A stretch of DNA of 20,704 nucleotides from a virus, in the IMG/VR virus record IMGVR_UViG_3300042946_001227, positions 1 through 20,704 of that record, one strand, 5' to 3'. The notes beneath the pieces are model-generated. The model did not search any database, was not told the DNA's origin, and saw only the letters and a program-made list of their open reading frames with translations. Position numbers and translations under genes: made by a program. Below are positions 1,503 to 20,704 of this stretch, piece after piece. Numbering within the stretch: the first letter of the stretch is position 1; each line of letters begins with the position of its first letter.

Positions 1503-2288
1503 CTAGAGCGCCTCCAGCAGCTGCGCGCGCGTGAGCGACCCGGCGAAGAGCGCGGCGTAGCGCACGATGCCCGACCCGCGCACGCTGTTCCCGCGTTCGT
1601 TGAGGCGGATCATCGCGGCATCGCCACCGCCCCACTCTGCCGCGAGGGCGTTGGCGCTCGACGTCGTGCCGACCACCTCGGCGCCGCCGTTGCGTACGAG
1701 GGCGAGCTGCACGGCCCCCGTCGCGAGCAGCCGCGCGCGCGCCGAGAACCGGGTCCCCAGGGTAATCGGGAGGGCCGAGGCGACCGTGCTGCTGCCGTTG
1801 TCATGCACGAACTGCATCTCGCCACTGCCCGTCCCGAGCAGGGCGAGATACGCCCCCGTGATCGCGTCCGTGGTGAGCGACCAGTACGGCGCATCGCTGG
1901 TGGTCGCGTTGCCCGACTCGATGCCGTCGAGCCGCAGCGTCAGCGCCCCCATGGCGAGGCGCACGCGCCCCGTCGTGGCGTCGTAGTAGCGCAGCGCTTC
2001 CTCGGCGCTGAGCAGCAGCCCGTCGTCCTCGCGCGAGTCGTCGCCATCCCAGTCGATCGAGGTCCACGCCGGTGCGGAGGCGGCCAGTGTGCCCGCCGTG
2101 CCGTCGGTCGCGTGGACTGTGGCCGCGCTCGTGCGGCCGCGATACGCCACCGAGAGCCCCTCGGTCAGGGGCGCCAGCAGGCCATCCCACGCGCGCCAGC
2201 TCCAAAGGGCGCGCGAGCGCACCCGGTGGGGCGTGCCGTCGAGACGGGCGTCGAGTTGCTGAGTGCCCAGCAGGGGGATGCGGCTCAT
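1503..2288 (-). CDS. Lectin-like tail protein (LamG/concanavalin-type fold), candidate receptor binder
   Basis: This 261-residue protein begins MSRIPLLGTQQLDARL. Its C-terminal two-thirds are beta-rich with Gly-Thr-Ser turns. The segment around residues 175-261 (FSARARLLATGAVQLALVRNGG, later IVRYAALFAGSLTRAQLLEAL) follows the usual jelly-roll lectin ending, in which a strand with an N-G turn is followed by a self-describing strand and a short helix. Such domains bind carbohydrate in phage fibres and tail tips, so a host-surface-binding role is inferred. The start at 2288 overlaps the Dit-like gene stop as ATGA. The open frame runs further upstream to 2561, but that part overlaps the previous gene in full and is Arg/Ala-rich shadow sequence. 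The family match is by eye. Confidence 0.7.
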   Translation of the reverse strand: MSRIPLLGTQQLDARLDGTPHRVRSRALWSWRAWDGLLAPLTEGLSVAYRGRTSAATVHATDGTAGTLAASAPAWTSIDWDGDDSREDDGLLLSAEEALRYYDATTGRVRLAMGALTLRLDGIESGNATTSDAPYWSLTTDAITGAYLALLGTGSGEMQFVHDNGSSTVASALPITLGTRFSARARLLATGAVQLALVRNGGAEVVGTTSSANALAAEWGGGDAAMIRLNERGNSVRGSGIVRYAALFAGSLTRAQLLEAL

Positions 2289-3217
2289 GCGGCGTCCGAT
2301 TGCAGGTAGGTCCACCAGCCCGTGCCGGCGCTCAGCTGCACCCGGAGCGGAGCGCTGCCGAACGGCGGCGGCGCGGCGTGCTGCCAGCGCGACGACAGCG
2401 CCAGCGAGCGCCAGCGGTAGACGTCTTCGGTCCCGCCCGCGGCCGTGCGGCGGATCAGGAGATGCGGCGCATCCAGGCGCAGGCTGAGCGTGTCCCCGGT
2501 CGCGAGCGACACCCCGCGCAGTGCGTGCCGCCAGAGGATCGCCCCCGCCGGCGAGAGGCAATCGATATCACAGGCCCCTGACAGCGGCCCATTGAGCACG
2601 ATCTCGCCGCCCACCGGCAGCCCGCGGATCGGCACGACAGCGGGTGTCGTGCTCAGGTACACGCGGGTTGCGGCGCGCTGGTACACGGCGCCGTCGCTGC
2701 AGCGGATCGGGAGCGACACGCGCCAGCACTGCCGGTCGGGCGCCACGAACGCCTTCTCTGGTACGTACGGCTCGACCGTCGCGAGCCCGGCGACGCCGCG
2801 CTGCAGCGCGCGGGGCGCGTGCGGCCAGCGCAGCTCCAGCAACCCGCCAAACGCATCGTGCAGCGCGGCGAGCTGCTGCTGCAGCGTCTCGAGCGCCACG
2901 TTCAGGAGCACGCCCGTCAGCACGAGATCGCGCGCGCTACTCGCCGCAAACGGCTCCAGGCGCCCGCCGGTCATGCCGGGCACGCGCGCGCTGTCCGGGA
3001 GCGGCCGCGTGACGCTATCGAGCCACCGCTCCGGGCGCTGCAGCACGAGGCCGAAGCGTTCGAGCGGGGTCTCGTTGACCCACAGCATCGTCGGCACCGT
3101 GCGGGGCGGGGCCGACGGCGTCGACGGGCCGGGCTCCGGGCCGGGGCCCGGGCCGGGACCGGGGCCACTCACGCCCGCCGGCTGGAAGAGCCAGCGAAAG
3201 CCAAAGCTGCTGCTCAT
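2285..3217 (-). CDS. Dit-like distal tail protein with a Pro-Gly N-terminal linker
   Basis: This is a 310-residue protein. Residues 1-43 form an unusual leader: FGFRWLFQPAG, then a Pro-Gly run (about 17-31), then a Ser/Pro stretch. From Met44 (MLWVNETPLERFGLVLQR) the sequence looks like the N-terminal Dit domain, with W-V-N at the start, a conserved PG, and a helix LETLQQQLAALHDAFGG. The C-terminal half (about 190-310) is beta-rich, including an I-x-G-x-P strand and GDTLSLRLD, as in the galectin-like Dit domain. Dit proteins form the ring joining the tail tube to the tip. The ATG at 3217 overlaps the hub gene stop as ATGA and has GGAGG 5 bases upstream. Met44 (position 3088) is a possible alternative start. 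Family assignment is by pattern, so moderate. Confidence 0.62.
   Translation of the reverse strand: MSSSFGFRWLFQPAGVSGPGPGPGPGPEPGPSTPSAPPRTVPTMLWVNETPLERFGLVLQRPERWLDSVTRPLPDSARVPGMTGGRLEPFAASSARDLVLTGVLLNVALETLQQQLAALHDAFGGLLELRWPHAPRALQRGVAGLATVEPYVPEKAFVAPDRQCWRVSLPIRCSDGAVYQRAATRVYLSTTPAVVPIRGLPVGGEIVLNGPLSGACDIDCLSPAGAILWRHALRGVSLATGDTLSLRLDAPHLLIRRTAAGGTEDVYRWRSLALSSRWQHAAPPPFGSAPLRVQLSAGTGWWTYLQSDAA
3125..3166 (-). repeat. GC-only Pro-Gly coding repeat
   Basis: This stretch consists almost only of G and C and encodes residues 18-31 of the Dit-like protein (GPGPGPGPGPEPGP). The underlying CCGGGNCCGG-like units are degenerate repeats and could gain or lose copies by slippage without changing frame. 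It probably acts as a stiff or flexible spacer between the leader and the Dit-like domain. Confidence 0.8.
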
Positions 3218-6200
3218 CGGATCCTCCGCACACCGGCCGCGATCGCGCCGGCGCCGAGCAGCTGCGCACCATCGCGCGCGAGCTGCCCGACCTCGAGCGC
3301 GGCCACCGCGACGCCGGGCTGCTCATCGATGGCGGTGAGGCGGACCTCGCGGTCCAGATCAGTCAGATGCACCGTGCCGCCGAGCGTGAGCGTGGGCAGG
3401 AGGTCGGCCGGGAGGCCGAGCAGGGTGGCGACGTCGGCGCCGAGCGCGGCCACCTCGAGGCGATCCGTGATGCGGGGGAGCGCCTGCTGCGCCAGCCGCC
3501 GGAGCGCCGTGAGCATCAGCGGGGTCGCGAAGCTCTCGCGCGTGTAGGGCGCGTCGAGCGCCTCGCCGACATACCAGAGACTGCGGAGATGCAGGCACCA
3601 GCGCGTGAAGTCACTCACGTGCCCGCCGTACACGCGGAAGCTGTACAGTCCCGACGCCGCGATGATGGCGCGCGTGGTGAGCGTGACCTCGCCAGGCGCT
3701 ACCGTGACATCGAGCCCTTCATCGTCGAGCCCACTCCAGCCGAGGATCGTGCCGGTGGCGTCGACGATCGCGCAGACCGGCCCTTGCGGCGCGAACCAGT
3801 CGGCCTCGGACAGGGTGAACTCGCTGCGCACCGTCACCTGGCGTGAGGCGCCCTCCGGGACCCGCACGTAGCACAGCGCGTGCGCATAGCCGGGCGTGCT
3901 GCTCGAAGGCTCGGGCGTCGCGCCACCCACGGGGCAGGTGAGCCGGAGCGCACTGCCCGCGCGCGACGCGCCGGCCGGCAGCAGGTTCGGCACCGTGATC
4001 GTCACGAGCGTGTTGTCGGAAATCGCGTTCGGATTCGCGCCGGTCAGCGTGACGTTCGCTTGGCCGCTCCCGTTCGCGATCACCGTCGCCGCCGCATAGA
4101 GCACATTGCCCGGCACCGGGACCGTGGAGCCTGCGACCACGCGATAGATGCCGTAGGCCTTCGGCGCCGTCGCACTGTCGCCCAGCACCCACGTATCGAC
4201 GCCGGCGACCTGCACGGACGGGGCGCCCGCGGTCACCTCGGCGAAGAGGCGCAGCTGCCCCGCGGCGTGCCAGCTCGCGCGCACGTCCAGCCCGCGCGCA
4301 TACGTGCGGCCGGCCGGGATCGCGGCAGCGAGTGTGAGCGTCGCGCGCCCATTGCTGCCCCAGCTGGCCGGGGCGCCCAGCGCGTACGTGTCGTCGCGAT
4401 TCCACGTGACCGACGCGAGCCCGACCGGGAAGGCGGCGCTACTCGCCCCCGTGCCCATGAAGAACGACGCCGTCGTGCCGACGAGGCTCTCAAGGCGCCA
4501 CGTGCCCGAGCTGCCCGCCTGCAGCCAGAGGCCACCCGGTGGGTAGTCCGCGAGCGCGACCTCGTCGAGCGTGCTCGTCGCGGCCGCGAATGACACCGTG
4601 TGGCTGTAGCCCACGAGGATCGTATCGCCCGTGTCCGGATCGATGTCGGTCACCGGGTCGACCGACCCCACGGCCGTGATGTTGAGCGTCGCCGTGATCG
4701 TGCGGCGCAGCGTGATCGTGTCGGTGGCAAGCCAGGGGCGCGTGGCGATGAGCGCCTGTGGCCGGAACGGCAGCACCGTGGTCCCTGCGACCCGCAGCCC
4801 ATTGAGCAGCAGCGTGCGGGTTTCGCGCTCGATGGTGAAGGTCCATGTCGAGCCGTCGGCGACGGTGGCGTTCGAGACGTCAAAGGTCCAGAAGCCGGTG
4901 CCCGTGTCGTACCACGCGGTGGACGGGATCTGCAGCGTCGGGGTGCTCTCGGGCGCGAGCGTCAGCACACTGCCCGCAATCGCCGTCACGCGCGCGACGA
5001 TCGTCTGTCCGCTGCCGCTCCCCCAGCGGAGCCGCGTGACACCTGCCACGGGCGAGGACACGGGACCGCCCACCGTCGGCAGGTAGCCGGAGACGGTCAC
5101 GGTGGCGCTCACCCCATCGGGCGCGATCGTCGGGGGCGCCGCGCACAGCACCCGGAACGGCTGTGTCGGCCACGTGGTCTGGTCGAGTGTGCTCCGGCTC
5201 CCACCGAGGAAGGGAGGGGAGAGCCCTACCCGCCCGGCCGAGAGGGCGGGGTGGAGGTAGTCGCAGCGTGCCCCCGTCCCGAGCAGCCCGCCCGACGTCG
5301 CGGCGAGCGTGCCGGGGATGCCGCGCGGCAGCAGGTCCGTGTCGCTGTCGCGGAAGCGCAGCGCGACGGCCATCACACTCTGCTCACCGTCGAGCACGAA
5401 GGCCCGCGTCTCGCGCCGGATCAGCGTGAAGGGCGCGTTGTCCGCGAAGTCGCCGGGCAGTCCAGGCGCCGCCACAGTGAGCGAGAGCGCGCCGGAGGCG
5501 TCGGGGATCGCGCCGCCGGTCACGGGGAGCACCACGCCGCCGGTGCGCAGCTCCATGCCCCGCCGCAGCGGCTGCCCCGGTGTCAGCCCGTCGATGGCGA
5601 AGGGCGTGCCCGTCCCGGTGCCGGCGGGGCGCGTGCCGTTCGCCAACGCGGTGAACGTGCGCCCCAGCTCATCGCGCAGATACTCGGTTCCCCCGCCGCC
5701 GTTCGCCGGCGACCACAGCGCGAGGCCGAGCTCGTGCCCGCCGTTCCTGGCGTACTGCCGTTCGCCGCGTCCGCCGGCGATCTGCAGGTCACGCACGACG
5801 CGCCCGTATTGCCGGACCGCCGACGGCAGTTCGAGGGTTTCGAGTGGTGTCCCCGCCGCATCCGCGACGATCTGCACCCGCGCCCCGATTGCCGGGGGCG
5901 TGCTGGTGGTGACCACGAACTCACTCGACGCCAGCGTCGTCGCTTCGATGCGGAGGAGCGCCGACCCGTCGAGCGCGTCGAGATATCGCGCCGGCAGGTC
6001 GAGCGCCGGGTGTGCGCAGTACTGCCCGTCTTCCAGCAGCGGCGACTCCTCGGACGTCGGCGAGCGAAGCGCAATCGCCACCTGTCCACCGCCCAGGGAT
6101 CGCACCGCCGTGACGCGCCACAGGTTCTCGCCGATCGTCGCGCGCTCGCTGTCCGTCGTGGCCGGCTCACCGGCGACGCGCGCCACCGTCATCAGGTTCG

Positions 6201-6867
6201 TGAAGTCCTCCTGCAGCTGGTGGTCCTCGAGGAGGCCGCCGTACGCGAGCGGGACCACCGAGGCACTCGCCCCGATGCGCCGCAGCAGGTCGACTTCTTC
6301 GGCGCCATCGAGGGCGATGCGCCACTGCACCTCGGCATCGGTGGCGTTGACGATGGCGCTCAGCAGCTCGCCCCGCGTCCACCGGTCCCACGACAGCGGG
6401 ATCGGGTCCAAGAACTCGACGACGCCCCAGCGCACGCCGGCGAGGCGATCGGTCTCCTGTTGCACGAAGAGAAACCGATCGCCGTACTGCCGGGGTGTGA
6501 GGTTCTCCGTGAAGCGGTACACCGTGCGCCCGCTCAGCGTCTCGCGCACGAGGTCGCTGTCCGCGAGGTCGTAGATCCGCGGGTGTGCCGTGACCGTGAA
6601 CTGCAGCCCCGACGCGCCCTGCGTCTGGCGCGAGCGGTTGGCGACCCGCACCTCGGCGTAGCCCCCACGCGCCAGCCCGTCGATGCGCACGATGGCGCGA
6701 TCGGCCGCACGATCCCAGGCGAGCCCCGCGTCGAGCACCAACGTGGCGACCCCGCGCGCACTCAGTTCGCGGCGCAGCACGGACCCGGGCAGCGCCGGGC
6801 CGAGGTTGCCGAGCGGCACCCCACCGGCCGACGTCCAGTCGGACATGAGCGTCAGCTCCCAGCTCAT
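3214..6867 (-). CDS. Large tail-tip hub/fibre-like protein
   Basis: This 1217-residue protein directly follows the tape measure, where siphophages encode the central tail-tip protein. Residues 1-250 are a mixed alpha/beta segment resembling baseplate-hub N-termini (AIVRIDGLARGGYAEVRV, ENLTPRQYGDRFLFVQQET). The middle, about 290-1080, is beta-rich with many Gly/Thr/Ser turns, suggesting Ig-like or fibre modules. A paired segment occurs there (FTLIRRETRAFVLDG near 480 and FTIERETRTLLLNG near 675). The last 120 residues (TPLMLTALRRLAQQALPRI to the end) are helical, then beta, like hub C-termini. The ATG at 6867 overlaps the tape-measure stop as ATGA and has GGAG 9 bases upstream. Met8 is an alternative start. 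It likely combines hub and receptor-facing functions. No peptidase or lysozyme motif was seen. Confidence 0.65.
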   Translation of the reverse strand: MSWELTLMSDWTSAGGVPLGNLGPALPGSVLRRELSARGVATLVLDAGLAWDRAADRAIVRIDGLARGGYAEVRVANRSRQTQGASGLQFTVTAHPRIYDLADSDLVRETLSGRTVYRFTENLTPRQYGDRFLFVQQETDRLAGVRWGVVEFLDPIPLSWDRWTRGELLSAIVNATDAEVQWRIALDGAEEVDLLRRIGASASVVPLAYGGLLEDHQLQEDFTNLMTVARVAGEPATTDSERATIGENLWRVTAVRSLGGGQVAIALRSPTSEESPLLEDGQYCAHPALDLPARYLDALDGSALLRIEATTLASSEFVVTTSTPPAIGARVQIVADAAGTPLETLELPSAVRQYGRVVRDLQIAGGRGERQYARNGGHELGLALWSPANGGGGTEYLRDELGRTFTALANGTRPAGTGTGTPFAIDGLTPGQPLRRGMELRTGGVVLPVTGGAIPDASGALSLTVAAPGLPGDFADNAPFTLIRRETRAFVLDGEQSVMAVALRFRDSDTDLLPRGIPGTLAATSGGLLGTGARCDYLHPALSAGRVGLSPPFLGGSRSTLDQTTWPTQPFRVLCAAPPTIAPDGVSATVTVSGYLPTVGGPVSSPVAGVTRLRWGSGSGQTIVARVTAIAGSVLTLAPESTPTLQIPSTAWYDTGTGFWTFDVSNATVADGSTWTFTIERETRTLLLNGLRVAGTTVLPFRPQALIATRPWLATDTITLRRTITATLNITAVGSVDPVTDIDPDTGDTILVGYSHTVSFAAATSTLDEVALADYPPGGLWLQAGSSGTWRLESLVGTTASFFMGTGASSAAFPVGLASVTWNRDDTYALGAPASWGSNGRATLTLAAAIPAGRTYARGLDVRASWHAAGQLRLFAEVTAGAPSVQVAGVDTWVLGDSATAPKAYGIYRVVAGSTVPVPGNVLYAAATVIANGSGQANVTLTGANPNAISDNTLVTITVPNLLPAGASRAGSALRLTCPVGGATPEPSSSTPGYAHALCYVRVPEGASRQVTVRSEFTLSEADWFAPQGPVCAIVDATGTILGWSGLDDEGLDVTVAPGEVTLTTRAIIAASGLYSFRVYGGHVSDFTRWCLHLRSLWYVGEALDAPYTRESFATPLMLTALRRLAQQALPRITDRLEVAALGADVATLLGLPADLLPTLTLGGTVHLTDLDREVRLTAIDEQPGVAVAALEVGQLARDGAQLLGAGAIAAGVRRIR

Positions 6868-9800
6868 GCGACGCCGCTCCCGAGGAAACGGATTTCCTGC
6901 GTCGCTAGGCGACCGAGCTGCGCGGCGATCTCGCGCGCCACCATGGAGCCCGCGGCGGCCGGCGTGGCGCCATCCGCGGAGATGCCGCCCACGTGCACCG
7001 TGATGGGACCGATGTTCACGATGGTGCCAGCGCCGCCCGCGCCCGCCGTCGGGAAGGTGGGGAAGCGCAGCGAAGCCAGCGACGCCGGCGCGCCGCGTCC
7101 GAGGATCGCGTCCACTAGCGCACCCTGTGCCCCGGTGTTGATCGCGATCTCGCGCAGCAGTCCCGCGAGCGACTGGCCCGTGATCTCGGACAGCCCGCCG
7201 AAGTCGCCGACGACGTTCGTGTTGCTGCGCTTCGTCGCCGTCGCCGTCGAAGTGGCCGCCGCTGTGCCTGTCGGGCGGGCCTCGCGCTCCGCCGCCTGCG
7301 CCGCGGCATTGTCGATGCGCCGCGCGCCGATCGCCCGAATGCGCCGCTCCAGATCGGGCGTCAGCAGGTTGAGCGCCGTCGCCGTGGCGATCATCTGCTC
7401 AACCCAGATCTCGGTCTGCAGGCGCACGGCGTCGAGCCCTTGGCCGAACGCGTCGAAATACGCCAGGTTGATCTGCGTCAGGAAGTCTTCCTGCTCGCTC
7501 GCGAGGGTGGCGAGCGCCTCGCCCAGCCCATCGAGCCCGCCGTCGATCTGCGTGAGTGCGGCGATGATCTCGTCGCGGTTCATCCCGAAGCGCTCGACGA
7601 GCTCCTCGTCGGTCAACCCTTCGATCGACTGGTAGAACTTCTTGATGTTCGTCGTGGCGCTCGCGATGCCGTCCGCCGAGCTGACGTCGATCGTGCCGAG
7701 CGCCTCGCGGAACGACTTGCTGAACGACCCGAGGGTCGTGAAGAACGCGTCGGCGCCGGTCGAATCGTTGAGCGCGATGTCGAGGTTCGCCTCGCCGGTC
7801 GCCAGCGAGCGCCGACGCTGGCGCGCGGTCTCGGCTTCGGCGGCGTTCTCTTCCGCATCCTGTGCGGCCTCGTCGATGATCTGGCCGAGCAGCCCGAAGA
7901 ACAGCTGCAGCGCCTGCAACAGGGGGCGCTCTTCCTCGGTGATCTTGCCGTCCTTGAGGATCTCCGTGATTTGTGCGCCGATGTTCGCGCGCACGGCCGC
8001 CGGGTCGAACCCCTTACCAAAGAGCGCCGCGATGTCAGGGAACTGCTCCGCGTACGTCTCTGCCCATCCGGTGACCTGTTCCAGCAGTGACAGCCCGAAG
8101 GTGTTGATCATCTCGCCGAACGCCTCGGCGGCCTGCTGCAGCGGGTCCGCGAGCGCGCCGAGTGCCGCGTCGATGTTCCCGAGGATGGCCCGGATCGCCT
8201 CAACGATTGGCTGCTCGGCGTCGGAGATTCCGCCTTCCAGCAGCTTGTTGAACTCGGCCCGCAGCTTCGCGCGGAGCGCGGTCAGCCCCGCTTCGGTGTT
8301 GAGATCGAGCCCCTTGGCGATGTCATCGAGCTGCGAGAACAGCCCACCGAACGTGCCCAAGGCGCGCGCGAGCTTCTCGCCCGCCGTGCCCCCGAGGATG
8401 TCGTTCGTGTCGTTCAGCTCATTGATGGCGCGAGTGCGGGCGCGCGTGGCAGCCGCCGCGGCGGCTTCCGCTGCCTGCACGGCCTTGAGCGCCCGGATGT
8501 ATTCCTGATAGCCCTCGGCGCCGTCGAAGTCGTTCATGGCCTGTTCGAGTTCACGCTGCGCCGCAAGGCGCTCGCGCTCGACTTCGGCCTCTTCGCTCCG
8601 CCCCTGCGCCACGAGGCGGCGCACCTTGAGGTCGTCCGTCGCCGTCTTGATCTGCGCGGCCTGCTCGCGGCGGAGGGCTTCCTCGGCGTCCTCGGCTCGG
8701 CCGATGAGGATGCGCACAGCGGCCGCGAGATTGAGCATACTCGCGTACGCTTCTCCCCCACTGAACGAGAGGCGCGTGATTTCTTTGTCGAGCAGCGCGA
8801 GATACGCACGCAGTCCGTCGGCGTTCTGCCGCCCGCCGCGCAGCTTGCTGTCGTCGAGACCGACCGCCTTGACGGCATCGGCGAGCAAGTCGCCGAACTT
8901 CTCGGCAAGGGCATTCCGTGCGGCCGCGAACGAGCCGATGTCCTGCTCACTGATGTCTCGGACGAACTGAGCGAGCCGCTCCTGAAACTGATTCGCCGCC
9001 CGGTCCAGCTCTTCTGCGCGCCGCTTGGCCGCTTCGCTCTGTTGGCCAAGCACTCCGACCAGCGAGACCACGCCGCCCGCAATCGCCCCGATGGGACCGA
9101 GAGCCGACGCGATGCCCCCGGCACTGGAGAACAGCGCCCCGAACCCGCCTGCCGCCGATGCCGCCGAGCCCAACCCGCTGATGCCGCTGCCAATCGAGAC
9201 CACCGACGACAGCATCTGCGCCAGCTCGGTGTTGCCGTCGCCCAGCAGCTGCACGAGCGAGAGTGCGGCCTGTGCGCTCGACTGGATGCCGGCGCCCAGC
9301 GACTGCGCGGCATTCGCGGCCGTGGTGGTGTTGGCGGCGAGTGCCGCCGTCGCCTCGGCTTCGTTCTTGACGAGCGCCGCCAGCTGGCGCTGCGCTTCGG
9401 CGCGTACGGCGGGATCGGTCTTCGGATCGTCCGCGATGGCCTGCAGGGCCGTGCGCACGCTCAGCAGCTCGTTCTCGGCGCGCTTCACATCGGCGATCGT
9501 CGGCACGCTCTCGGCGTAGCTCGCGTTCGCCGCCTTCGTAAAGAGCGCCTCAGTCTGCGCCGCCGCAGCCGCGCGCTCCGACAGGCGCGTGATCTCCTTC
9601 AGCCCGTCGCGCCGCTTCTCCGCAACTTGGACCTGCTCACGGAACCCGGCGGTCAGCGCGCGCAGCTTCTCGGCGTTTTCCGTCTCGCCGAGACGTTCGG
9701 CCTGGTCCGCCGCCTCAGCGCTGGCCGCGGCCTTCTTCTCCAGCTCAGCCGTGATACGCGCGTAGACGGCATCGAGCGTGCGCAGGGCGCTGCCGCTGGC

Positions 9801-10817
9801 TTCCGCCTGCAGGTCGGCAAGATCAAGGGTGAGGCTCGCGATCGAGGCTGCGACGGTCTTCGCCGCTGCGGCATTCTCAGCTGCCGCGCGCTTCGCTTTC
9901 TCGCCTTCGGCATCGGCGTCCTTTGCCGCATCCTTCGTGGCCGCAGCAAGCGCACGCTTCGCCGCCGCTGCCCGTTCGGTGGCGGTGGCCTGATCGATCG
10001 TCGTCTGCGTCTGCGAGAGAAACGTTGGGGTCAGCTTCTCGACCTGCCGCGTGACCTCCTCATATTCTTTCCGCAGCTCCCGCTGTGTGGCGATCAGTTC
10101 GTTGAGTTCGTTCCTCGCCTTCTGCAGTTCGTCGCTCCCGAGCGACACACCGAGCGACCCGGGAGCGGAGACCGCTGCTGCCGACGCGTTAGCCTTGTTG
10201 AGCCTGCGAAAGGCTTCTTCGAGCTGCGCGAGCTTCGCGCGCGCCGCATCGATCTGGGGTTCGATGCCCAGCAGACCGCCCGAGCTGATGCCCCTCGCTC
10301 GTCGCCGCTCCCTCGGGTCCGCGTTCTTCTGTGCTTCTGGGAAGTTCTCATCGCCGCTGAACAGATCGGCCTGCAGCTTCGAGAGGCCGGCGAGGTCCTT
10401 TGAACGCGCCAGCGACCGGATATTGTTTTGGATGCTGACTGTGGTCCGCTCAGCTTCTTCCCGCGCCTTGAGGAAGAGCGCCACGATGGCCGAGCCCGCG
10501 ACCCCGACGCCGGTCACCAGCGCACCGGCGGGGCCGAAGAGTTCCGCGAAGTTGCCCACGGCGGCGCCGAGCGCCAGCACCTTGGCCGAGCCTTCCGACT
10601 GCAGCGCGAAGAGAGCCTGCGACACACCGGTCACTCCAGCGGCCGCCTTGCGCGCCTTGTCTACCGTCAGTTCAAAGCTCTTCGCCGTCCGCGCGTTCGC
10701 CGTCTCGGCCGACTGCGCGGTCTGTTGCACCCGCTGCTTGACTTCCTCCAGCGCCTTAATGGCGCCCGACGCATCGCCCGTGATCTGCGCGGCGAACTCC
10801 GTGGTCCGCGTGCTCAC
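6864..10817 (-). CDS. Tape measure protein
   Basis: This 1317-residue protein sets tail length and is expected to pass into the host during DNA ejection. It starts with STRTTEFAAQITGDASGAIKALEEVKQRVQQ, a typical tape-measure opening, and consists mostly of long Ala/Glu/Lys/Arg-rich helices. Two hydrophobic Gly/Ala segments stand out: about residues 75-125 (LFGPAGALVTGVGVAGSAIVALFL) and about 575-635 (several GxxxG-like stretches ending GAIAGGVVSLVGVLG). The C-terminus is shorter and beta-prone (GAGGAGTIVNIGPITVHVGG). The start is a GTG at 10817 overlapping the upstream stop as GTGA. The open frame continues upstream to an ATG at 10916, but the added part reads Arg/Gly-rich and overlaps the neighbour. 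No lysozyme, peptidase or M23 motif was seen. Confidence 0.93.
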   Translation of the reverse strand: MSTRTTEFAAQITGDASGAIKALEEVKQRVQQTAQSAETANARTAKSFELTVDKARKAAAGVTGVSQALFALQSEGSAKVLALGAAVGNFAELFGPAGALVTGVGVAGSAIVALFLKAREEAERTTVSIQNNIRSLARSKDLAGLSKLQADLFSGDENFPEAQKNADPRERRRARGISSGGLLGIEPQIDAARAKLAQLEEAFRRLNKANASAAAVSAPGSLGVSLGSDELQKARNELNELIATQRELRKEYEEVTRQVEKLTPTFLSQTQTTIDQATATERAAAAKRALAAATKDAAKDADAEGEKAKRAAAENAAAAKTVAASIASLTLDLADLQAEASGSALRTLDAVYARITAELEKKAAASAEAADQAERLGETENAEKLRALTAGFREQVQVAEKRRDGLKEITRLSERAAAAAQTEALFTKAANASYAESVPTIADVKRAENELLSVRTALQAIADDPKTDPAVRAEAQRQLAALVKNEAEATAALAANTTTAANAAQSLGAGIQSSAQAALSLVQLLGDGNTELAQMLSSVVSIGSGISGLGSAASAAGGFGALFSSAGGIASALGPIGAIAGGVVSLVGVLGQQSEAAKRRAEELDRAANQFQERLAQFVRDISEQDIGSFAAARNALAEKFGDLLADAVKAVGLDDSKLRGGRQNADGLRAYLALLDKEITRLSFSGGEAYASMLNLAAAVRILIGRAEDAEEALRREQAAQIKTATDDLKVRRLVAQGRSEEAEVERERLAAQRELEQAMNDFDGAEGYQEYIRALKAVQAAEAAAAAATRARTRAINELNDTNDILGGTAGEKLARALGTFGGLFSQLDDIAKGLDLNTEAGLTALRAKLRAEFNKLLEGGISDAEQPIVEAIRAILGNIDAALGALADPLQQAAEAFGEMINTFGLSLLEQVTGWAETYAEQFPDIAALFGKGFDPAAVRANIGAQITEILKDGKITEEERPLLQALQLFFGLLGQIIDEAAQDAEENAAEAETARQRRRSLATGEANLDIALNDSTGADAFFTTLGSFSKSFREALGTIDVSSADGIASATTNIKKFYQSIEGLTDEELVERFGMNRDEIIAALTQIDGGLDGLGEALATLASEQEDFLTQINLAYFDAFGQGLDAVRLQTEIWVEQMIATATALNLLTPDLERRIRAIGARRIDNAAAQAAEREARPTGTAAATSTATATKRSNTNVVGDFGGLSEITGQSLAGLLREIAINTGAQGALVDAILGRGAPASLASLRFPTFPTAGAGGAGTIVNIGPITVHVGGISADGATPAAAGSMVAREIAAQLGRLATQEIRFLGSGVA

Positions 10818-11665
10818 CGCGCGCCGTCCTGCGACTTCGCCTTCGCGTTGGCCTTGGCCACGCGATGCGACTCGGCGGATGCCACGGCGGCCGCCATCGC
10901 TTCGGGGACCGACCAACGCCGCATGAGGTGACTCGGCGCGATGCCGTGCTCGCTCGCGTAGCCGGACAGAAACCCGGAGAGGTTGAGGCGCGAGCGCTCC
11001 GGGCCTGCGTCCTCATCGCTCGCGAGCGCCGACGCCATCAGCGCGATGGCCTCGAAGTGCAGCTGCCGGTGCGCCACGAAGATCGCGACGTAGTCCTCCG
11101 GCAGCAGCTGCGCCGTGTAGTCGGGCGGCTCGATCGCGCCCTCGGCCGGGAAGGGGACGTCGACGCCCTCGGTGAGGAGGATCCACGCCCACGTGCGGAG
11201 CGCGAGCCCGTGCGCCAGCGCAGGCATTCCGCGCAGATCGGCCGAGTCATCGGCCGCCGTCACCAGCTCAGTCGCCAGACGGGCCACCGGCTGCACCATC
11301 GCGTCGAGCGCGTCGAGCCACGACAGCGCCCACGCGCTCTTGGGGTGCACCAGGCGCTCGCCGATCGAAAGCGCCACCGGCACCGGCTGTCGCGCACTCG
11401 CGGCACGCACGGTGGCTTCGAGCAGCGCGTGATCGGTCTCCGTCTTCGCCATCCGTTCGAGCCGCCCCGCGAAGCGTACGAGCTGCGCGTAGCATTCAAC
11501 CCAGGCGTCGGCCTTCGTGTACCCATTCTCCGCTCCCCCGGGCCACACGGCGGACAGCTCCTCCGCCGTAGCCAACTGCTGGCGGAGGAGCTGCTCGCGC
11601 AGCGACCGGCACCGCGCACGGAGCGCGGCACCGGTAAGCTGCCGGGGCGTACGGGTCGCGGTCAT
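10814..11665 (-). CDS. Probable tail assembly chaperone (positional)
   Basis: This 283-residue soluble, largely helical protein lies between the major tail protein and the tape measure, the slot of the G/GT tail assembly chaperones in lambda-like phages. Its C-terminal part (about residues 225-275, LSGFLSGYASEHGIAPSHLM then RRWSVPEAMAAAVASAESHR) has the look of the helix-turn-W-S-x-x-E segment found in many chaperone C-termini. The N-terminal 200 residues are not recognised, and the whole is longer than lambda gpG (about 140 residues). The start at 11665 lies 7 bases after the upstream stop with only a weak GAAG before it. The end overlaps the tape measure by 4 bases. No slippery heptamer is visible in the overlap. 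Confidence 0.6.
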   Translation of the reverse strand: MTATRTPRQLTGAALRARCRSLREQLLRQQLATAEELSAVWPGGAENGYTKADAWVECYAQLVRFAGRLERMAKTETDHALLEATVRAASARQPVPVALSIGERLVHPKSAWALSWLDALDAMVQPVARLATELVTAADDSADLRGMPALAHGLALRTWAWILLTEGVDVPFPAEGAIEPPDYTAQLLPEDYVAIFVAHRQLHFEAIALMASALASDEDAGPERSRLNLSGFLSGYASEHGIAPSHLMRRWSVPEAMAAAVASAESHRVAKANAKAKSQDGAR

Positions 11666-13302: not shown

Positions 13303-14589
13303 TTACGAGGCGTTCAGGACCTTGAGCACACCGCACGCATTGATGCGGCGGGGCACGACCAGCGGCGCCGACTGCGACATGATCCAGCGCACCGACGGGT
13401 CCGGCGTCACCCACGACTTCGGGAAGATCTCCAGCGGCTGCATCCCGGCCTCTTCGTCCTGGATCGCGCCCTGGTGCTGCACGCCTTCAATCGCGCCGAC
13501 GCAGAGGGCGTGGCCGCCCTCCATCGTCCGCGTCTCGGTGCCGTTCGGCGCTGTGAAGAAGCCGGTGTACAGCCAGATCCGATAACCGCCGTACGCGCCC
13601 TTGTACTGCAGCCCCTCCGCGACGGGCTCCAGCGACATGATCGTGCCGGCGTCATACTTCGGTAGCTCGAGGTCCCGCTCGACCTTCTTGTTCTTGCGGA
13701 ACGCCTTCCAGGCGGCGGCATCGAGGATCACGTCGAGGATCGGCGCGCCGGCGAGTTCGACCGTCGTTTCCGACAGGTCGTCGAGGTTGTCCATCGGGTT
13801 CGACGTGGTCTCCGACCAGCGGTTTCCGCCGGTGAGGTTGTTCGCGACCGCGCTCGCCTCGAGGCGGGGACTCCGGCCGAAGTTGACCACGGTGCTCGGG
13901 TACTTGTCGCCGACCACCGTCACCCGGCCACTGAACAGCGCCTCGAACGCCATCGCCTCCTTGCGGCGCATGATGCGGTCCATCTGATCCTGCAGCTCGT
14001 TCGCGAGCGCCAGATCGCGCCGCTGCTCCGGGCTCAGGGTGCCGCCGATCGCCTCGCCCATGCTGCGACGCAGCGCGCGGTCGGGCGTCCACCGGGCCTT
14101 TTCCTTGACGTAGGCCGGCGTGAACGTCTCGACGCGCTGGCCGCGCATCTCCTTGACGGGCGCTTCGACCAGGGGATGCACGAACGGCGCGAGGAACCGC
14201 TGCCCTTCGTCGATGTCGAAGTGGATGTACTCGTCCTGCGACTGCGTCGTGGTACCGAAGAACGCGTTCAGCAAGCCGGTGTTCGGCCGCTTGAGGTTCT
14301 CGAGCACGCCGAGCAGGGTGTTCGTGGTGAAGGGCCCGATCGACCCGACGAGCAGGACGGGGGCGATCGGGAACTCAGTGGCCACCGGCGCGAGGGCCGC
14401 GGGGGCGGTCATGAGCGACAGCAGGCCGACGATGGTCGCGAGGACCAGCAGCGGCACCAGCATCACCAGCGAGAAGGCGCCGAACAGCGTCGGCATCGGG
14501 GCGGCCGCGGCCGGTGCGGTGCCGCCGTGGAACGCGCCGGCGATCGTGGCGCCGAACACGCCGTGGATCTTGCGGAGCAGGATACGCAT
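13303..14589 (-). CDS. Major capsid protein (gpE-type) with an N-terminal hydrophobic extension
   Basis: This is a 428-residue HK97-fold capsid subunit of the lambda gpE family. From about residue 86 the sequence follows gpE closely: PFTTNTLLGVLENLKRP, a loop with DIDEGQRF, VETFTPAYVKEKARWTPD, a TVVGDKYPSTVVNFGRSP strand, then QYKGAYGGYRIWLYTGFF, and an ending PKSWVTPDPSVRWIMSQSAP. Lambda gpE has 341 residues and starts almost directly at this point. Residues 1-85 are extra: basic MRILLRKIHG, an Ala/Gly stretch, and a strongly hydrophobic run at about 35-59 (LFGAFSLVMLVPLLVLATIV). The ATG at 14589 has AGGAG 11 bases upstream. A shorter reading from Met60 (14412) has no Shine-Dalgarno sequence. 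Capsid identity is nearly certain, and the role of the extension is unknown. Confidence 0.95.
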   Translation of the reverse strand: MRILLRKIHGVFGATIAGAFHGGTAPAAAAPMPTLFGAFSLVMLVPLLVLATIVGLLSLMTAPAALAPVATEFPIAPVLLVGSIGPFTTNTLLGVLENLKRPNTGLLNAFFGTTTQSQDEYIHFDIDEGQRFLAPFVHPLVEAPVKEMRGQRVETFTPAYVKEKARWTPDRALRRSMGEAIGGTLSPEQRRDLALANELQDQMDRIMRRKEAMAFEALFSGRVTVVGDKYPSTVVNFGRSPRLEASAVANNLTGGNRWSETTSNPMDNLDDLSETTVELAGAPILDVILDAAAWKAFRKNKKVERDLELPKYDAGTIMSLEPVAEGLQYKGAYGGYRIWLYTGFFTAPNGTETRTMEGGHALCVGAIEGVQHQGAIQDEEAGMQPLEIFPKSWVTPDPSVRWIMSQSAPLVVPRRINACGVLKVLNAS

Positions 14590-15976: not shown

Positions 15977-16909
15977 AGGCTTGTCCTCGTGTTGTGCGGC
16001 ACGCGCCGCAGTGGGTGATGCGCTGCTCGCCTCGGTCGCCGAGCCGCGCCAGGTGCCGCCCGCCAGCTCGGCGTGCAGCGCTTCGTAGGTGCCGACCCGA
16101 TCGGCCAATCCCGCACTCACGGCCCGCGCGCCCACCAGCACGGCGCCCTGACCGAAGCGCGCGTCGACGTCCTCGCGCGTCACGCCCCGGTACTCGGCCA
16201 CGGTGGTGAGGAACACATCGGCGATGTCGTCGACCATTTGCTGCCACACCCGCTTGCCCTCGTCATCGACGGGCGGGCGATTCTTCTCGGGCGTCTGCGA
16301 GCTCGTGATCGTGATCTCGCGGAGCCCCCAGTTGGCCATCATCTCGGTCGTGTCGAGATACGCGACCTGCGCGCCGAGGCAGCCCAGGGCCGACGTCTCG
16401 GCGGTCACGATCTCGTCGCACGCCGAGGCGATCCAGTAGGCCGCGCTGCAGGCATCGCCCTCGATAAAGGCCACGATGGGCTTCGTGCCGCGCGCTGCGC
16501 GAATGATGCGCGCCAGCTCCTGGCACCCGTTGACGTGGCCGCCGGGGGAGTCGATCGTCAAAACCAGTGCCTTGACCGCTGGGTCCCGCAGCGCCTGGGT
16601 GATCTCGTGCGCCAGCACGTCGTAGCTATCGTAGTAGAAGCTGAGCCACGACGAACCTGAGACCAGCGGGCCGTACACGCGGATCTGCCCCACGCCCTGC
16701 CGGATCGTGAGGCGGTACGAGTACTCGACGCCATCCTCCGCCTCGGCGGAGACGGCTTCAGCGGGACTGGCCATGAAGCGTTCCGCGGTCGCGAGCACCC
16801 GCTCCAACCCCGACGGCGAGATCCCCCATGGCTGCCCGACCACGGCGCCGATCACCTGCTGACGGCGCGACTGGCGCGCCTCACGAGTCGTGCGCTTACG
16901 CGTCGGCAT
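15296..16909 (-). CDS. Head maturation protease fused to scaffold (S49 family, gpC-type)
   Basis: This 537-residue prohead protease cleaves scaffold and portal-vertex proteins during capsid maturation. The S49/SppA-like domain spans about 65-285. It includes TIDSPGGHVNG (119-128), the likely nucleophile Ser155 in GDACSAAYW, and the likely general base Lys209 in QTPEKN. This Ser-Lys spacing of 54 is close to the 52 reported for lambda gpC (Ser166/Lys218). After a linker (about 286-311), residues 312-537 form the scaffold part, with a strongly acidic stretch near 384-425 and a helical region near 435-485. The ATG at 16909 overlaps the portal gene by 14 bases and has GAGG 6 bases upstream. The basic N-terminus (MPTRKRTTREARQSRRQQ) is unlikely to be a signal peptide. 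Confidence 0.93.
   Translation of the reverse strand: MPTRKRTTREARQSRRQQVIGAVVGQPWGISPSGLERVLATAERFMASPAEAVSAEAEDGVEYSYRLTIRQGVGQIRVYGPLVSGSSWLSFYYDSYDVLAHEITQALRDPAVKALVLTIDSPGGHVNGCQELARIIRAARGTKPIVAFIEGDACSAAYWIASACDEIVTAETSALGCLGAQVAYLDTTEMMANWGLREITITSSQTPEKNRPPVDDEGKRVWQQMVDDIADVFLTTVAEYRGVTREDVDARFGQGAVLVGARAVSAGLADRVGTYEALHAELAGGTWRGSATEASSASPTAARAAQHEDKPMPRLKRIGTARAASTAAAYETSAEVRALVTRDVGIAEGDIGTITEVRDGSFYRVQVGEGEDTYAWLAEDEIEAATATPAEDAPADASEDEEPQDTTATDDEEQETTARRAKPSAFRTALAAARSAERKRITGILALANKASLESLLTLVQDASCTPEAAAHRLLTGKVPGVRASGLTQLAGDEADLTQHGGVSAIGEGPATQSDADRIVATAALFNPRAIARKPRG
15985..15988 (-). promoter_or_regulatory. Internal ribosome binding site for the nested scaffold start
   Basis: GAGG on the minus strand, 8 bases before the in-frame ATG at 15976 inside the protease/scaffold gene. 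Both spacing and sequence are suitable for initiation. This site is the direct evidence for a Nu3-like nested product. Confidence 0.5.
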
Positions 16910-18503
16910 CGGTGGCCTCGCTTTCCTCGGGCGTCTCTTCCGGCGCCGTTTCGTTGTCGTCCATCACGACCATCGAGCCCAAGCCCGATGTGATGATCTC
17001 CGCCGGCGCGAGGCCATCGCTCACGCGGCGCGTGCGCTCGCGCACAAGCTGTTCGTGCACCGTCTCCCAGTCCTGCCCGGTGAGCTGCGGCGTTTCCATA
17101 GCGCGAGTCGAGAAGCCCGCATCGACGCGCCGGATCGCCGCGTTCACTTCCTTGAGCGGGTCGAGCTGCGTCACCGTCGGCCCGGCCCACATCGCGCCGA
17201 GGTACGCCAGGCGCGCGAGGGGATCCTCGAGGAAGCCTGGCGCCACCAGCAGGCCCCGCTGCACCGCCTCGGTGATGATCCACTCGTACACGGGCTGGCA
17301 GAACGATTCCACGAGCCAGTCCTGTTGCGCCTCGAATGCGCGCCACGCTTCCTGCAGGGCGGCGCGTGAGGCGCTGTAGGAGCTGTTGAATTGCTTGAGG
17401 AGCAGCTCGCGCGGGATGCCGAGCGCTACGCCCATGTAGGTCGCGATCGCGCCGACGAACGGGTCGAACTGCGCGTTCGGGCGCCCGGGATTCGCGATGC
17501 TGATGTCGTCGCCGGCGGGGAGCTCCACCACCGAGCCTTGCCCGAGCTTCACGTTGTTGCCGACGTCGAGCAGCTCGGTGTCTGCGTCCTCGAGATCGGC
17601 GAGGCTCTTGCCCTCCTCGACGCTCCCTGTGCGCTTGATGAACACCGTGAAGAACGACGCGATCACCGCCGCCGCGAGCTCGCTGTCGGTGAACCGGTCG
17701 AGCTGCTTGAGCTGCCGGATGACGGGCGCGAGGTACGGCACCCCACGCGTCTGGTTCACCCGCTGCTGTTCGAGGATATGCAGGACCAGCGGGGCGCCGC
17801 TCCAGGTCCCGTAGGCCGGGACGAAGTCGTACGTCGGGAGGCCCTGCCCATAGCCCGACTCGCTCGGGTGATGGCTCGCGATGTGGTATCCCACTGCGGC
17901 GCCGTACGCGTCGAGCTGGATCCCGTCGCGCAGCGTGGGCCCGTTGATCCGGCCCGGCGGGTTCCCGACTCGATCGGCTTCGAGCAGCTGGATCTTGAGC
18001 GCGAGGACATCGCCGGCCCGCGGGACGTAGCGCCGGAGGGCGAACGCGTCCCCGCCTGACAGGACCGAGCGGAGGGCAAGGCGCTGCATCTGGGCGAAGC
18101 TGTTCCGTCCGGCCACGTCGAAGCGCTTCGTAAAGGCGACCGCGCGCACGATGCGCATGGCGTCGCGCTGCCAGCGGGTGGCGTCCTCCTCGGAGAGGCC
18201 GAGATACTCGCGGTCGATCTGCGGGGTCGGCTTGAGCCCCCCGCCCACGACGTTGTCGAGGCGCGTGAGCATCGCGCCCGTGGCCAGCGGCGCGTTGCGC
18301 TCGAGATCGCGCGTGCGGGCCCGAAGGGCGGGCAGATCCCCGAGTGTGTCCTGGTCAGCCGAACCGAGCCCCGGGAGCCACGCCATCAGCTCGCGCAGGT
18401 CCGTGCGAGCGCCTTCATAGCCCCCGCGGCCGAAGAACGCCCGCGCCTTCGGGCGTCGGGCCTGCTGTGCCCTGGACAGCGCCGTGCGCTGCTGCCGCGT
18501 CAC
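16896..18503 (-). CDS. Portal protein (lambda gpB family)
   Basis: This 535-residue protein matches lambda gpB (533 residues) in length, position and motifs. The dodecameric portal is the DNA channel at one capsid vertex and the platform for terminase and connectors. Typical features are LERNAPLATGAMLTRLDNVVGGGLKPTP (about 66-93, the turn and first wing), a G-D-A-F strand (SVLSGGDAFALRR), LQLLEADRVGNP-like residues around 174-184, the helix IPRELLLKQFNSSYSASRAA, and the Trp/aromatic stretch AQQDWLVESFCQPVYEWII. The start is a GTG at 18503 overlapping the upstream stop as GTGA, with no clear Shine-Dalgarno site, so translation is probably coupled to the gpW-like gene. The C-terminal 30 residues are highly acidic (NETAPEETPEESEATDADA). 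Confidence 0.95.
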   Translation of the reverse strand: MTRQQRTALSRAQQARRPKARAFFGRGGYEGARTDLRELMAWLPGLGSADQDTLGDLPALRARTRDLERNAPLATGAMLTRLDNVVGGGLKPTPQIDREYLGLSEEDATRWQRDAMRIVRAVAFTKRFDVAGRNSFAQMQRLALRSVLSGGDAFALRRYVPRAGDVLALKIQLLEADRVGNPPGRINGPTLRDGIQLDAYGAAVGYHIASHHPSESGYGQGLPTYDFVPAYGTWSGAPLVLHILEQQRVNQTRGVPYLAPVIRQLKQLDRFTDSELAAAVIASFFTVFIKRTGSVEEGKSLADLEDADTELLDVGNNVKLGQGSVVELPAGDDISIANPGRPNAQFDPFVGAIATYMGVALGIPRELLLKQFNSSYSASRAALQEAWRAFEAQQDWLVESFCQPVYEWIITEAVQRGLLVAPGFLEDPLARLAYLGAMWAGPTVTQLDPLKEVNAAIRRVDAGFSTRAMETPQLTGQDWETVHEQLVRERTRRVSDGLAPAEIITSGLGSMVVMDDNETAPEETPEESEATDADA

Positions 18504-18730
18504 CGGTGCACCACGCCGTAGGTCCGCCCACGCGTGCCGCGCACGAGGCGCGCCAGCTCGTCGGCGTAGTCCTTCTCGAGCTCGCGCAGCGCCTTGAGAT
18601 CCGCTCTGGTCATCATGCGGCCTTCGGCGGAATACGCCTGGCCACCGCTGACGATGCGGCGGATCGACTCACGGACCCCGACTAGGTCCGTCTCGAGCTC
18701 GGCGATGCGGGCGGCGCGTGCAGTGGTCAC
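18500..18730 (-). CDS. Head-tail joining protein, gpW-like
   Basis: This 76-residue protein lies between terminase and portal, as W does in lambda (68 residues). The pattern matches gpW: an N-terminal helix (AARIAELETDLVGVRESI), a short beta hairpin (SGGQAYSAEGRMMT) and a second helix (ADLKALRELEKDYADELARL), ending in a basic tail. gpW plugs the portal after packaging and receives the next connector. The start is uncertain. The GTG at 18730 gives the family's usual length but has no Shine-Dalgarno site. An in-frame GTG at 18799 would add 23 residues (GYPCKSATRSCAKAW...), which do not look like gpW, and would put the start inside repeat copy 1. The portal gene overlaps its stop by 4 bases. Confidence 0.75.
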   Translation of the reverse strand: MTTARAARIAELETDLVGVRESIRRIVSGGQAYSAEGRMMTRADLKALRELEKDYADELARLVRGTRGRTYGVVHR

Positions 18731-18773
18731 ACGCGCAGGGTAGGGAAACAACCAAGCTTTCGCGCAACTTCTG

Positions 18774-18795
18774 GTTGCGGATTTGCAAGGGTACC
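18774..18795 (+). repeat. Direct repeat copy 1, imperfect palindrome
   Basis: Copy 1 shares 20 of 22 bases with copy 2 at 18858-18879, including a 15-base identical core ATTTGCAAGGGTACC (18781-18795). The inner TTGCGGATTTGCAA (18775-18788) is an imperfect version of the palindrome in copy 2, with 5 of 7 pairs matching. The copies are offset by 84 bp, which is 8 turns of B-DNA at 10.5 bp per turn. Confidence 0.85.
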
Positions 18796-18857
18796 CCACA
18801 AAACCACCAGAAACGCGGGGGTGCTCTATAGTTGCGAAAACCGCGAAAGCTCGACTT

Positions 18858-18879
18858 GTTGCAAATTTGCAAGGGTACC
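18858..18879 (+). repeat. Direct repeat copy 2, with a perfect 14-bp palindrome
   Basis: Copy 2 contains TTGCAAATTTGCAA (18859-18872), a perfect palindrome of the size bound by dimeric helix-turn-helix proteins, followed by GGGTACC as in copy 1. It ends two bases before the stop codon of the winged-helix gene. Being at the 3' end of that gene, it could act on the downstream head genes. Confidence 0.85.
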
Positions 18880-18880
18880 G

Positions 18881-19252
18881 TCAGACGACGCCGTTGCTCA
18901 CGATACGCGCACGTGTTCGACGTACAGCAACTAGCGTTGTGGCAGACACTTCGGCGTCCCGGTCGGTGGGTGAGGTCGCCGTGCAGTCCGCACGCGAGAA
19001 TGGCACGCGAAACCGGGCCGGTGCCCCGGATTCCGAGAGCTTGCACAGGTAGCCGCGCTCAACGAGCGTGGCCAAAGACCGTGATACCGTAGAGGGATCC
19101 ACCTCGAGGTCGTTCTCGATCGTCGCCAGCTTGAGTTCGCGCCACTCTACGAGGTCGAGCAGCTCGATGGCACTGCGCCACACCTGAAACGCCCGTGGTG
19201 GCAGCTTCAGATCGCGGGAGATTTGACGGAAGATCGGGACTTCGACTTGCAT
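18881..19252 (-). CDS. Winged helix-turn-helix DNA-binding protein
   Basis: This is a 123-residue protein with a wHTH domain at about 15-80. Helix residues 17-36 (LPPRAFQVWRSAIELLDLVE) lead into KLATIENDLEVD, the recognition helix PSTVSRSLATLVERG (53-67) and a wing (YLCKLSESGAPARFRV). This is the MarR/replication-initiator-like layout S-T-V-S-R-x-L-x-x-L-x-x-x-G-Y-L. The C-terminal 40 residues are polar and Arg-rich and not recognised. It sits between terminase and gpW, a place where lambda has no regulator. The ATG at 19252 shares one base with the terminase stop (TGATG) and has a GAGGGG-type site about 8 bases upstream. A transcription regulator of the downstream operon is the obvious idea. 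A DNA-binding packaging accessory is the alternative. Confidence 0.8.
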   Translation of the reverse strand: MQVEVPIFRQISRDLKLPPRAFQVWRSAIELLDLVEWRELKLATIENDLEVDPSTVSRSLATLVERGYLCKLSESGAPARFRVPFSRADCTATSPTDRDAEVSATTLVAVRRTRARIVSNGVV

Positions 19253-20704
19253 CAGTACACCCCTCGCGAAACGACGCGGGGGCGATTGCGGGCGCGAGGT
19301 GGTGCATACGGTGCCGACGGGGGGCTGGAGCCGTCCGAGGACGCAGGAATGCTCACCACCTCCCCGCCCTCAGCCCGTGCCAGCTTTGCCAGATCCTGCA
19401 GCACGCGAGCACCGAGCGATACGAGGGCTGCGTAGGCGTACACCGTGGTATCGAGTACCTCGTTCGCGAGATCCTTGGCCCTCTTGCGCCACACACGAAC
19501 GGGCCGACGGTTCTTGTATTCGGTCTTCAGCTCTTCGCTCGTCAGCTGCAGGTAGAACGCAGCGTCCAAGCCATCGGGGAAGTGGATGTATTCCGGGCCC
19601 GGTTCGCGGACCTGCAGGCGACCGAACAGCATGTCCTTCACCGTGTCGATGCCCACCACGCGGGAACGGATCGACCGGCCGCTGCGGCGGCGCGTCTCCT
19701 TCGGCGGATCAGCGATGACGGGTCGGCCGCGTCCTTCGCGGCCCTGTGTCGGGACCACCTTGGCGCCATTGGGACCGACGAAGCGCCTCGCGAAGCGGTG
19801 CACGTGTCCGGTCTGATACTTGGCGTCGATGCACGTCGCGGCGATGAAACGCGTCTTCCCCGATTCGTCGGTGAAGCCTGATCGGAGGTAGTCACCCACC
19901 TCGCGCCACGTGCGTTCAAGCGCGGGGTCGCCTTCGACGATGTGCCAGTCGATGACCCAGGCTTCCTCACCCGCACCGTAGCCCCACACGGTTAGCTGCA
20001 CGCTATCACCCTGCACGTCGCCGCCGGCCACCAGCACGCGGACACCTCTGGGAACCTTGGCTCGGTAGATCTCGGCGCGCTGCTGCAGGAAGTTCGAACT
20101 CACGCCAGCGGCCTTTTCGGCAAACGGCAGGCCACAGATGTTGTTGACGAACGTGCGCATCTTCGCCGGCGAGCGGACCGCGCGAGTGAAGCGCTGCGCG
20201 ATACGGTGCCAGGAGATCAGGGGCGAGATGAAGGCCGGGATGTGGAAGCCTTCTGCCGATCGCCCAGGATGCCGCGGCCGCCACTCGCCCTTGGCCAGCA
20301 TCTGTGCCTTGTGCCACTCCGGGATCAGGCAGGCGCAATGCTCGCAGACGTAGGACACGGTGCCGGGGACGACTTCCCCGAACTCGTCTTTCTCCCACAC
20401 GAAGCGCATCTCGCCGCTCGTGTTCTCGTCGCCCTCTTCCATGCCGTCGCGCCACCGCAGCACCTGCATTTCATGGCAGTGGGGGCAGGGCATGTGCCAA
20501 TCGTTCCACGTCGAGCGCGAAAGCTCTTCGTAGATGCGGGACGCCCCCGAGACCGTCGGCGTGCTCTCGAAGTATTCCTTGTAGTCCCAGAACGTCTCGC
20601 CGCGTGAGCGGGCCAGTTCGATCGGGTCGCCGTCCTCACTCAGCTCGGCGATGATGTTGTCGACCTCCGAGAACCAGATCCGGGCGGCCGAGATCGAGCG
20701 GAGG
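19252..20704 (-). CDS. Terminase large subunit (GpA family), N-terminus outside the window
   Basis: The visible 483 residues are the C-terminal two-thirds of a lambda gpA-type DNA-packaging motor. Reading from the edge, IWFSEVDNI is at the Walker B position, followed by GDPIELARSR and ESTPTVSGASRI, a GpA signature. A CPHC/CEHC zinc-finger-like pair follows (MPCPHCHEM and YVCEHCACL). The nuclease domain begins near GGDVQGDSVQLTVWGYGAGE and includes ATCIDAKYQTGHVHRFARR and IDTVKDMLFGRL, closing with KDLANEVLDTTVYAYAA. The nuclease cuts concatemers at cos-type sites. The frame is open across the right edge (first full codon starts at 20703), so the Walker A region and start codon are missing. 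The small terminase subunit is expected upstream. The last 40 residues are Pro/Ser/Arg-rich and unlike the core. Confidence 0.95.
   Translation of the reverse strand, partial: LRSISAARIWFSEVDNIIAELSEDGDPIELARSRGETFWDYKEYFESTPTVSGASRIYEELSRSTWNDWHMPCPHCHEMQVLRWRDGMEEGDENTSGEMRFVWEKDEFGEVVPGTVSYVCEHCACLIPEWHKAQMLAKGEWRPRHPGRSAEGFHIPAFISPLISWHRIAQRFTRAVRSPAKMRTFVNNICGLPFAEKAAGVSSNFLQQRAEIYRAKVPRGVRVLVAGGDVQGDSVQLTVWGYGAGEEAWVIDWHIVEGDPALERTWREVGDYLRSGFTDESGKTRFIAATCIDAKYQTGHVHRFARRFVGPNGAKVVPTQGREGRGRPVIADPPKETRRRSGRSIRSRVVGIDTVKDMLFGRLQVREPGPEYIHFPDGLDAAFYLQLTSEELKTEYKNRRPVRVWRKRAKDLANEVLDTTVYAYAALVSLGARVLQDLAKLARAEGGEVVSIPASSDGSSPPSAPYAPPRARNRPRVVSRGVY

Follow-up and report, generated by a model that had tools for sequence, protein, structure and literature searches.

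The head genes of lambda-type phages are usually viewed as one passive late operon. In the DNA studied here, a small gene for a predicted winged-helix (wHTH) DNA-binding protein and a repeat-rich gap are placed inside such an operon, and the question is whether they form a built-in control of the head genes. The window, i.e., the whole stretch of 20,704 bases analysed, covers an IMG/VR record from end to end. The record comes from an uncultured lambda-like phage, and the genes are read on the minus strand. A lambda-type head module was recognized, with gpA (terminase large subunit, TerL), gpW, lambda portal, S49 protease, decoration protein D, and capsid protein E in that order. The wHTH gene and a 150-bp gap are located between gpA and gpW (Table 1), and the 5' end of TerL lies beyond the record edge. 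All other intergenic gaps of the window are 34 bp or shorter, which agrees with an earlier note on this DNA that the only real non-coding gap directly follows the wHTH gene. From the comparison of related phages, the wHTH protein is predicted, at a rough probability of 0.6, to be a site-specific regulator of an internal head-operon promoter and to have its own duplicated operator.

Table 1. Features of the region between terminase and gpW, its neighbours, and the capsid protein extension (window positions unless a contig is named).
Feature	Position	Strand	Evidence or remark
Terminase large subunit gpA/TerL	19252..20703	-	GpA_nuclease 245.7 bits, GpA_ATPase 108.2 bits; phrog_15 E 1e-142
TerL C-terminal tail codons, RPRVVSRGVY	19255..19284	-	
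Winged-helix DNA-binding protein (predicted), 123 aa	18881..19252	-	Pfam HTH_5 and HTH_IclR above cutoff; AF2 core; Foldseek; 4 relatives
wHTH C-terminal tail codons, RARIVSNGVV	18884..18913	-	End-to-end match to TerL tail
Regulatory gap (predicted role), 150 bp	18731..18880	-	Largest gap of the window; repeat-promoter region alignable across three lineages
Repeat r1, upstream copy	18855..18881	-	Palindrome TTGCAAATTTGCAA at 18859-18872; includes last base of wHTH gene
Putative promoter element P1, CTATAGAGCA (CTATAAAGCG in relatives)	18822..18831	-	Conserved in three lineages
Repeat r2, downstream copy	18771..18797	-	84 bp from r1; degenerate copy TTGCGGATTTGCAA at 18775-18788
Candidate second -10, P2, TACCCT	18737..18742	-	6 nt before gpW start codon; suggestive only
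gpW-type head-tail adaptor, first gene downstream of gap	18500..18730	-	phrog_118 connector E 8e-12
Portal protein gpB, second gene downstream of gap	16896..18503	-	Phage_portal_2 317 bits
Capsid E N-terminal extension	14286-14589; L088 10673-10976; L098 around 100-435	- (window)	

The small wHTH gene that the earlier note placed between terminase and gpW was recognized by generic HTH models of Pfam, i.e., ArsR-type HTH_5 (25.4 bits) and HTH_IclR (25.2 bits), each with a cutoff of 22. The AlphaFold model, made from four sequences, has a winged-helix core of moderate confidence (pLDDT 72-84), and its Foldseek matches were mostly winged-helix regulators at around E 1e-3. By these three lines, the protein belongs to the generic winged-helix class (H-H-H plus wing). 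The start codon of its gene overlaps the TerL stop by 1 nt. The cutoffs of the MarR family (PF01047/PF12802) were not reached by the window protein (19.1 against 24.6 and 19 against 27) or by the L003 protein (26.4 against 27). The Mor domain (PF08765) had no match in the window, L003, or L005 proteins, and Nu1 (PF07471) had none for the wHTH protein. MarR/ArsR-type regulators have the winged-helix core and partly palindromic sites in common with this module; however, only the DNA-binding core is shared, and a TerL-like tail replaces the ligand or extra dimer domain.

Between the window and L088, the wHTH protein is the fastest-changing product of the head module, with 50% identity against 65-97% for the rest (TerL 83%, gpW 87%, portal 85%, D 89%, and E 97%). 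Faster divergence than its neighbours is expected of a regulator that co-evolves with its own sites.

Two side observations were made on the structural proteins. An N-terminal extension of approximately 100 residues in the major capsid protein E includes a long hydrophobic, membrane-like stretch and is found in three lineages, which is odd beside the 97% conservation of the remaining capsid protein between window and L088. The tail proteins (window 2284-10916 compared with L097) showed 30-55% identity, whereas for capsid E the identity of the window with L088/L097 is 97%. Such divergence beside a conserved capsid protein points to modular exchange or fast tail evolution.

From a search with the portal, 79 loci were obtained, of which the closest were L003, L004, and L006 (84-85% portal identity) and L005 (61%). 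These four relatives and the window make up three independent lineages. In each of the four, the wHTH gene lies between TerL and gpW, and its product shares 44-51% identity with the window protein across the full alignment. Their gaps each contain a pair of direct repeats that flank CTATA(A/G)AGC at a spacing of 84 or 85 bp. A search of all IMG/VR with the wHTH alignment and an independent DNA-pattern search with the promoter core led to the same four contigs. The earlier note had proposed to check whether the gene and the repeats always occur together; they do in all four relatives, and neither was found alone in all IMG/VR, although this counts as three lineages. No wHTH relatives were found among named phages, and two scans of genome contigs, one with the wHTH and one with the TerL alignment, found no relative.

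The perfect 14-bp palindrome and its degenerate copy 84 bp away, described by the earlier note, are present (Table 1), and the 22-nt repeat cores, GGTACCCTTGCAAATTTGCAAC and GGTACCCTTGCAAATCCGCAAC, are likewise 84 bp apart. The direct repeat of the window scored 16, whereas the best of 1000 dinucleotide-preserving shuffles of the gap reached 12 (0/1000), and those of L003 (22) and L005 (17) were also above all 1000 shuffles. The single palindrome was dropped as evidence, as the window has three more perfect palindromes with arms of at least 7. The conserved unit is a direct repeat of approximately 27 bp with a CAAC end, and its palindromic character is not kept in every lineage (weak in L005). 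The further inverted pair of the earlier note, AGCTTTCGCG/CGCGAAAGCT (18755-18764 / 18842-18851), is present but, by eye, not conserved in relatives. No other copy of the window repeat was found in the window, and no other copy of the L003-type repeat in the G001, G002, and G004 records.

The spacing of r1 and r2 is 84, 85, and 84 bp in the window, L003, and L005, i.e., about 8 helical turns (8 x 10.5 bp). The two sites are thus in helical phase, as the earlier note had it, and they flank a conserved promoter-like element. The alignment of the repeat-promoter region from the three lineages contains one 1-nt gap. Between lineages, r1 copies are identical at 11, 17, and 9 of 27 positions, and within a lineage r1 and r2 agree at 22-23 of 27. 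The same change was found in both repeats at 9 of 16 changed r1 columns for window and L003 and 12 of 18 for L003 and L005, with fewer for window and L005 (3/10). Concerted change would follow from a single protein that reads both sites; a similar pattern would result from gene conversion between the copies.

The element between r1 and r2, P1, includes a putative -10 hexamer, TATAGA, at 18825-18830, without a -35. Its core, CTATA(A/G)AGC, has one conserved copy per record, and the TATA lies 49-51 bp from the r1 start. A scan found no sigma-70 -35/-10 pair or terminator. P1 is called a putative promoter on the basis of its conservation. In all three lineages, a TAnnnT motif lies 6-7 nt ahead of the gpW start codon, and no Shine-Dalgarno sequence was found at that spot. 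The suggestive candidate P2 at this place would yield a leaderless gpW mRNA. The dyad centres of the repeats are at about -48 and -52, which departs from the canonical -41.5 and from the -43.5 for Mor and weighs against the reading. Mu Pm has no -35 and requires Mor bound at -43.5 (PMC4287176). The arrangement here, i.e., a -10-like element, no -35, and a repeat centred at about -48, may represent an activator-dependent promoter of the Mor/C kind.

An activator is considered somewhat more likely than a repressor, because approximately 50 bp separate each repeat from a downstream -10-like hexamer that has no -35, an arrangement like that of Mor at Mu Pm, and because the same slot has Mor-like genes in other lambda-type phages. 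The two sites flanking P1 would also be explained by a repressor or a loop. The earlier note had raised looping as a possibility. In a repressing loop, a dimer on each repeat would join the other across 8 helical turns and shut P1 until a signal releases it. GalR and LacI operator pairs are likewise two matched sites about integral helical turns apart around a promoter, and here the spacing of 84-85 bp between the sites on either side of the TATA element is near 8 x 10.5 bp. However, the window protein is unrelated to GalR and LacI in sequence, the putative promoter here has no -35, and tetramerisation is not indicated. Without a -35 there would be little basal promoter activity to repress, a repressor made together with TerL would shut the head genes when they are needed, and transcripts that read through from the terminase operon would escape its control. 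A looping repressor is therefore rather unlikely, and an activator that acts on one or two promoters with only a -10 would account for the sites no less well.

The activator reading draws on what other phages carry in the same slot. In 15 lambda-type IMG/VR contigs (L012, L018, L020, L025, L027, L028, L029, L040, L044, L049, L056, L062, L064, L078, and L081), a small HTH gene of another type starts within 5 nt of the TerL stop. A Pfam match to Mor at E 0.01 or better was obtained for 6 of the 15 slot genes, and most others have the Mor pattern. In 4 of the 15, two of which are closely related, the TAnnnT before gpW is preceded by an 8-9-bp dyad whose centre lies 24-24.5 bp upstream, a feature picked after looking. 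The Mor-like slot genes are possibly a widespread head-operon activator module. The L018- and L044-type Mor genes were not found among named phages. Many TerLs of the Mor-slot contigs end in a different tail type, GGRISLxGMxRFGR. The earlier note held that lambda-type modules normally run from A to W without a regulator. This is true of the named phages compared, such as RcKemmy and BZS1, in which TerL leads straight to gpW, but not of the 15 Mor-like contigs or of L024, in which the gene after TerL (3849-4082) encodes an excisionase-type HTH (HTH_17, 44.6 bits) unrelated to the window wHTH. The slot thus recurs among lambda-type phages and is not unique, and the window module fills it in a new way. 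As a side observation, L019 (2087-4960) carries cargo between TerL and gpW, with ORFs that look radical-SAM-like and glycosyltransferase-like by eye.

Mor/C of phage Mu and the Mor-like slot genes (L012, L018, L020, L027, L044, and others) share with the window module a small HTH gene before the presumed target operon, a -10-like element without -35, and a symmetric site upstream; the slot genes also share the place between TerL and gpW. The window protein differs in being a winged helix with no Mor match, in having two repeats 84 bp apart in place of one dyad, and in its TerL-like tail.

The earlier note was silent on this tail. The last ten residues of the wHTH protein are RARIVSNGVV in the window, RPRVVSRGVL in L003, and GPRVVGRSVV in L005, and they align end to end with those of TerL from the same phage, i.e., RPRVVSRGVY, RPRVVSKGVY, and KPRVIGRGVW. 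Among ORFs after TerL in the 79 loci and the window, the most TerL-like tails belong to the wHTH genes of the window clade and to L024, whose HTH tail is KRRVISGGVQ and whose TerL ends in GRRVISSGVA. Shuffled tails equalled the observed scores in 7, 0, 12, and 5 of 20,000 trials. Apart from one ORF matched by chance, all matches of a tail regular expression among 9,894 ORFs were TerLs or HTH genes that directly follow TerL (three). A wider DNA-pattern search for the tail gave six stretches, which were chance matches on ORF inspection.

In lambda, the TerL C-terminus contacts the portal, and loss of the last five TerL residues causes a prohead-binding defect (PMC4856287). The window TerL has its tail at the same place, i.e., as an extreme C-terminal peptide, but a copy is here also found on a separate predicted DNA-binding protein. 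For the present phages, we infer the portal contact of the TerL tail from lambda. The likeness of the wHTH tail to that of TerL suggests that transcription of the head genes may be linked to the assembly of heads. One form of it would be that free portal or proheads compete with the action of the wHTH protein on the promoter of the portal and capsid genes, so that transcription is coupled to assembly via the shared peptide; this form is tentative and probably not the right one.

The shared tail could also be a functionless relic, left as a target-site duplication when the 3' end of TerL received an HTH gene insertion. Both in L024 and in the window clade, the HTH gene overlaps the TerL stop, as such an origin would predict. 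However, the tail was kept although the preceding linker is scrambled, and it is found on two unrelated HTH types. For the serine of the tail, TerL uses TCG and the wHTH gene AGC (window and L003), so the tail is not a recent DNA copy, and the likeness was kept at the peptide level. A relic is accordingly doubtful.

The same tail would suit a packaging protein that docks on the portal, i.e., a second TerS-like or accessory terminase subunit with the gap as its packaging site. TerS proteins include wHTH folds, and the paired sites are reminiscent of cosB. As for TerS itself, this identity was ruled out for the wHTH protein, as a Nu1-type TerS lies upstream of TerL in the relatives L088 (25.2 bits) and L091 (33.4 bits; cutoff 30). 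This normal TerS also weighs against a second one, a conserved TATA-like element between packaging sites is unexpected, and the co-linearity and the place before gpW suit a promoter. A packaging role is thus quite improbable.

For the gap, it was also considered that the repeats act as RNA hairpins in the gpW leader, i.e., as an attenuator or processing site. Short hairpins are possible in the L003 repeats, but leader folding was no better than shuffles (z -1.1, -1.5, and -0.4), the structures vary between lineages, and there is no Rfam match and no terminator, which makes an RNA element very unlikely. A replication origin, with the wHTH protein as an O-like initiator and the repeats as iterons, is hardly credible, since the L003 match to the phage O N-terminal domain (TIGR01610) is 15.3 bits, far under the cutoff of 45.5, and the repeats are only two, stand in the head operon, and enclose a conserved TATA element.

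The preferred reading is a self-contained regulatory module inserted between the terminase and head genes. The wHTH protein would be made together with terminase and would bind both repeats in the gap that follows the wHTH gene. From there it would control the putative internal promoter, which has the -10-like CTATA(A/G)AGC and no -35 and would drive the gpW, portal, protease, decoration, and capsid genes. After the terminase mRNA is made, capsid-gene output could in this way be raised above the few terminase copies needed. As the least certain step, the tail copied from TerL would probably let the wHTH protein touch the partner of TerL, which is the portal in lambda, with possible feedback from head assembly.

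No report of such a regulator with a TerL docking tail was found in the literature searched, of which the coverage was partial. If the reading is true, head output in these phages would be set in a slot between terminase and gpW, where a regulator and a promoter are placed and where unrelated HTH families are used by different phages. A regulator with the docking tail of the motor would, if true, be a direct molecular link from capsid gene expression to assembly.
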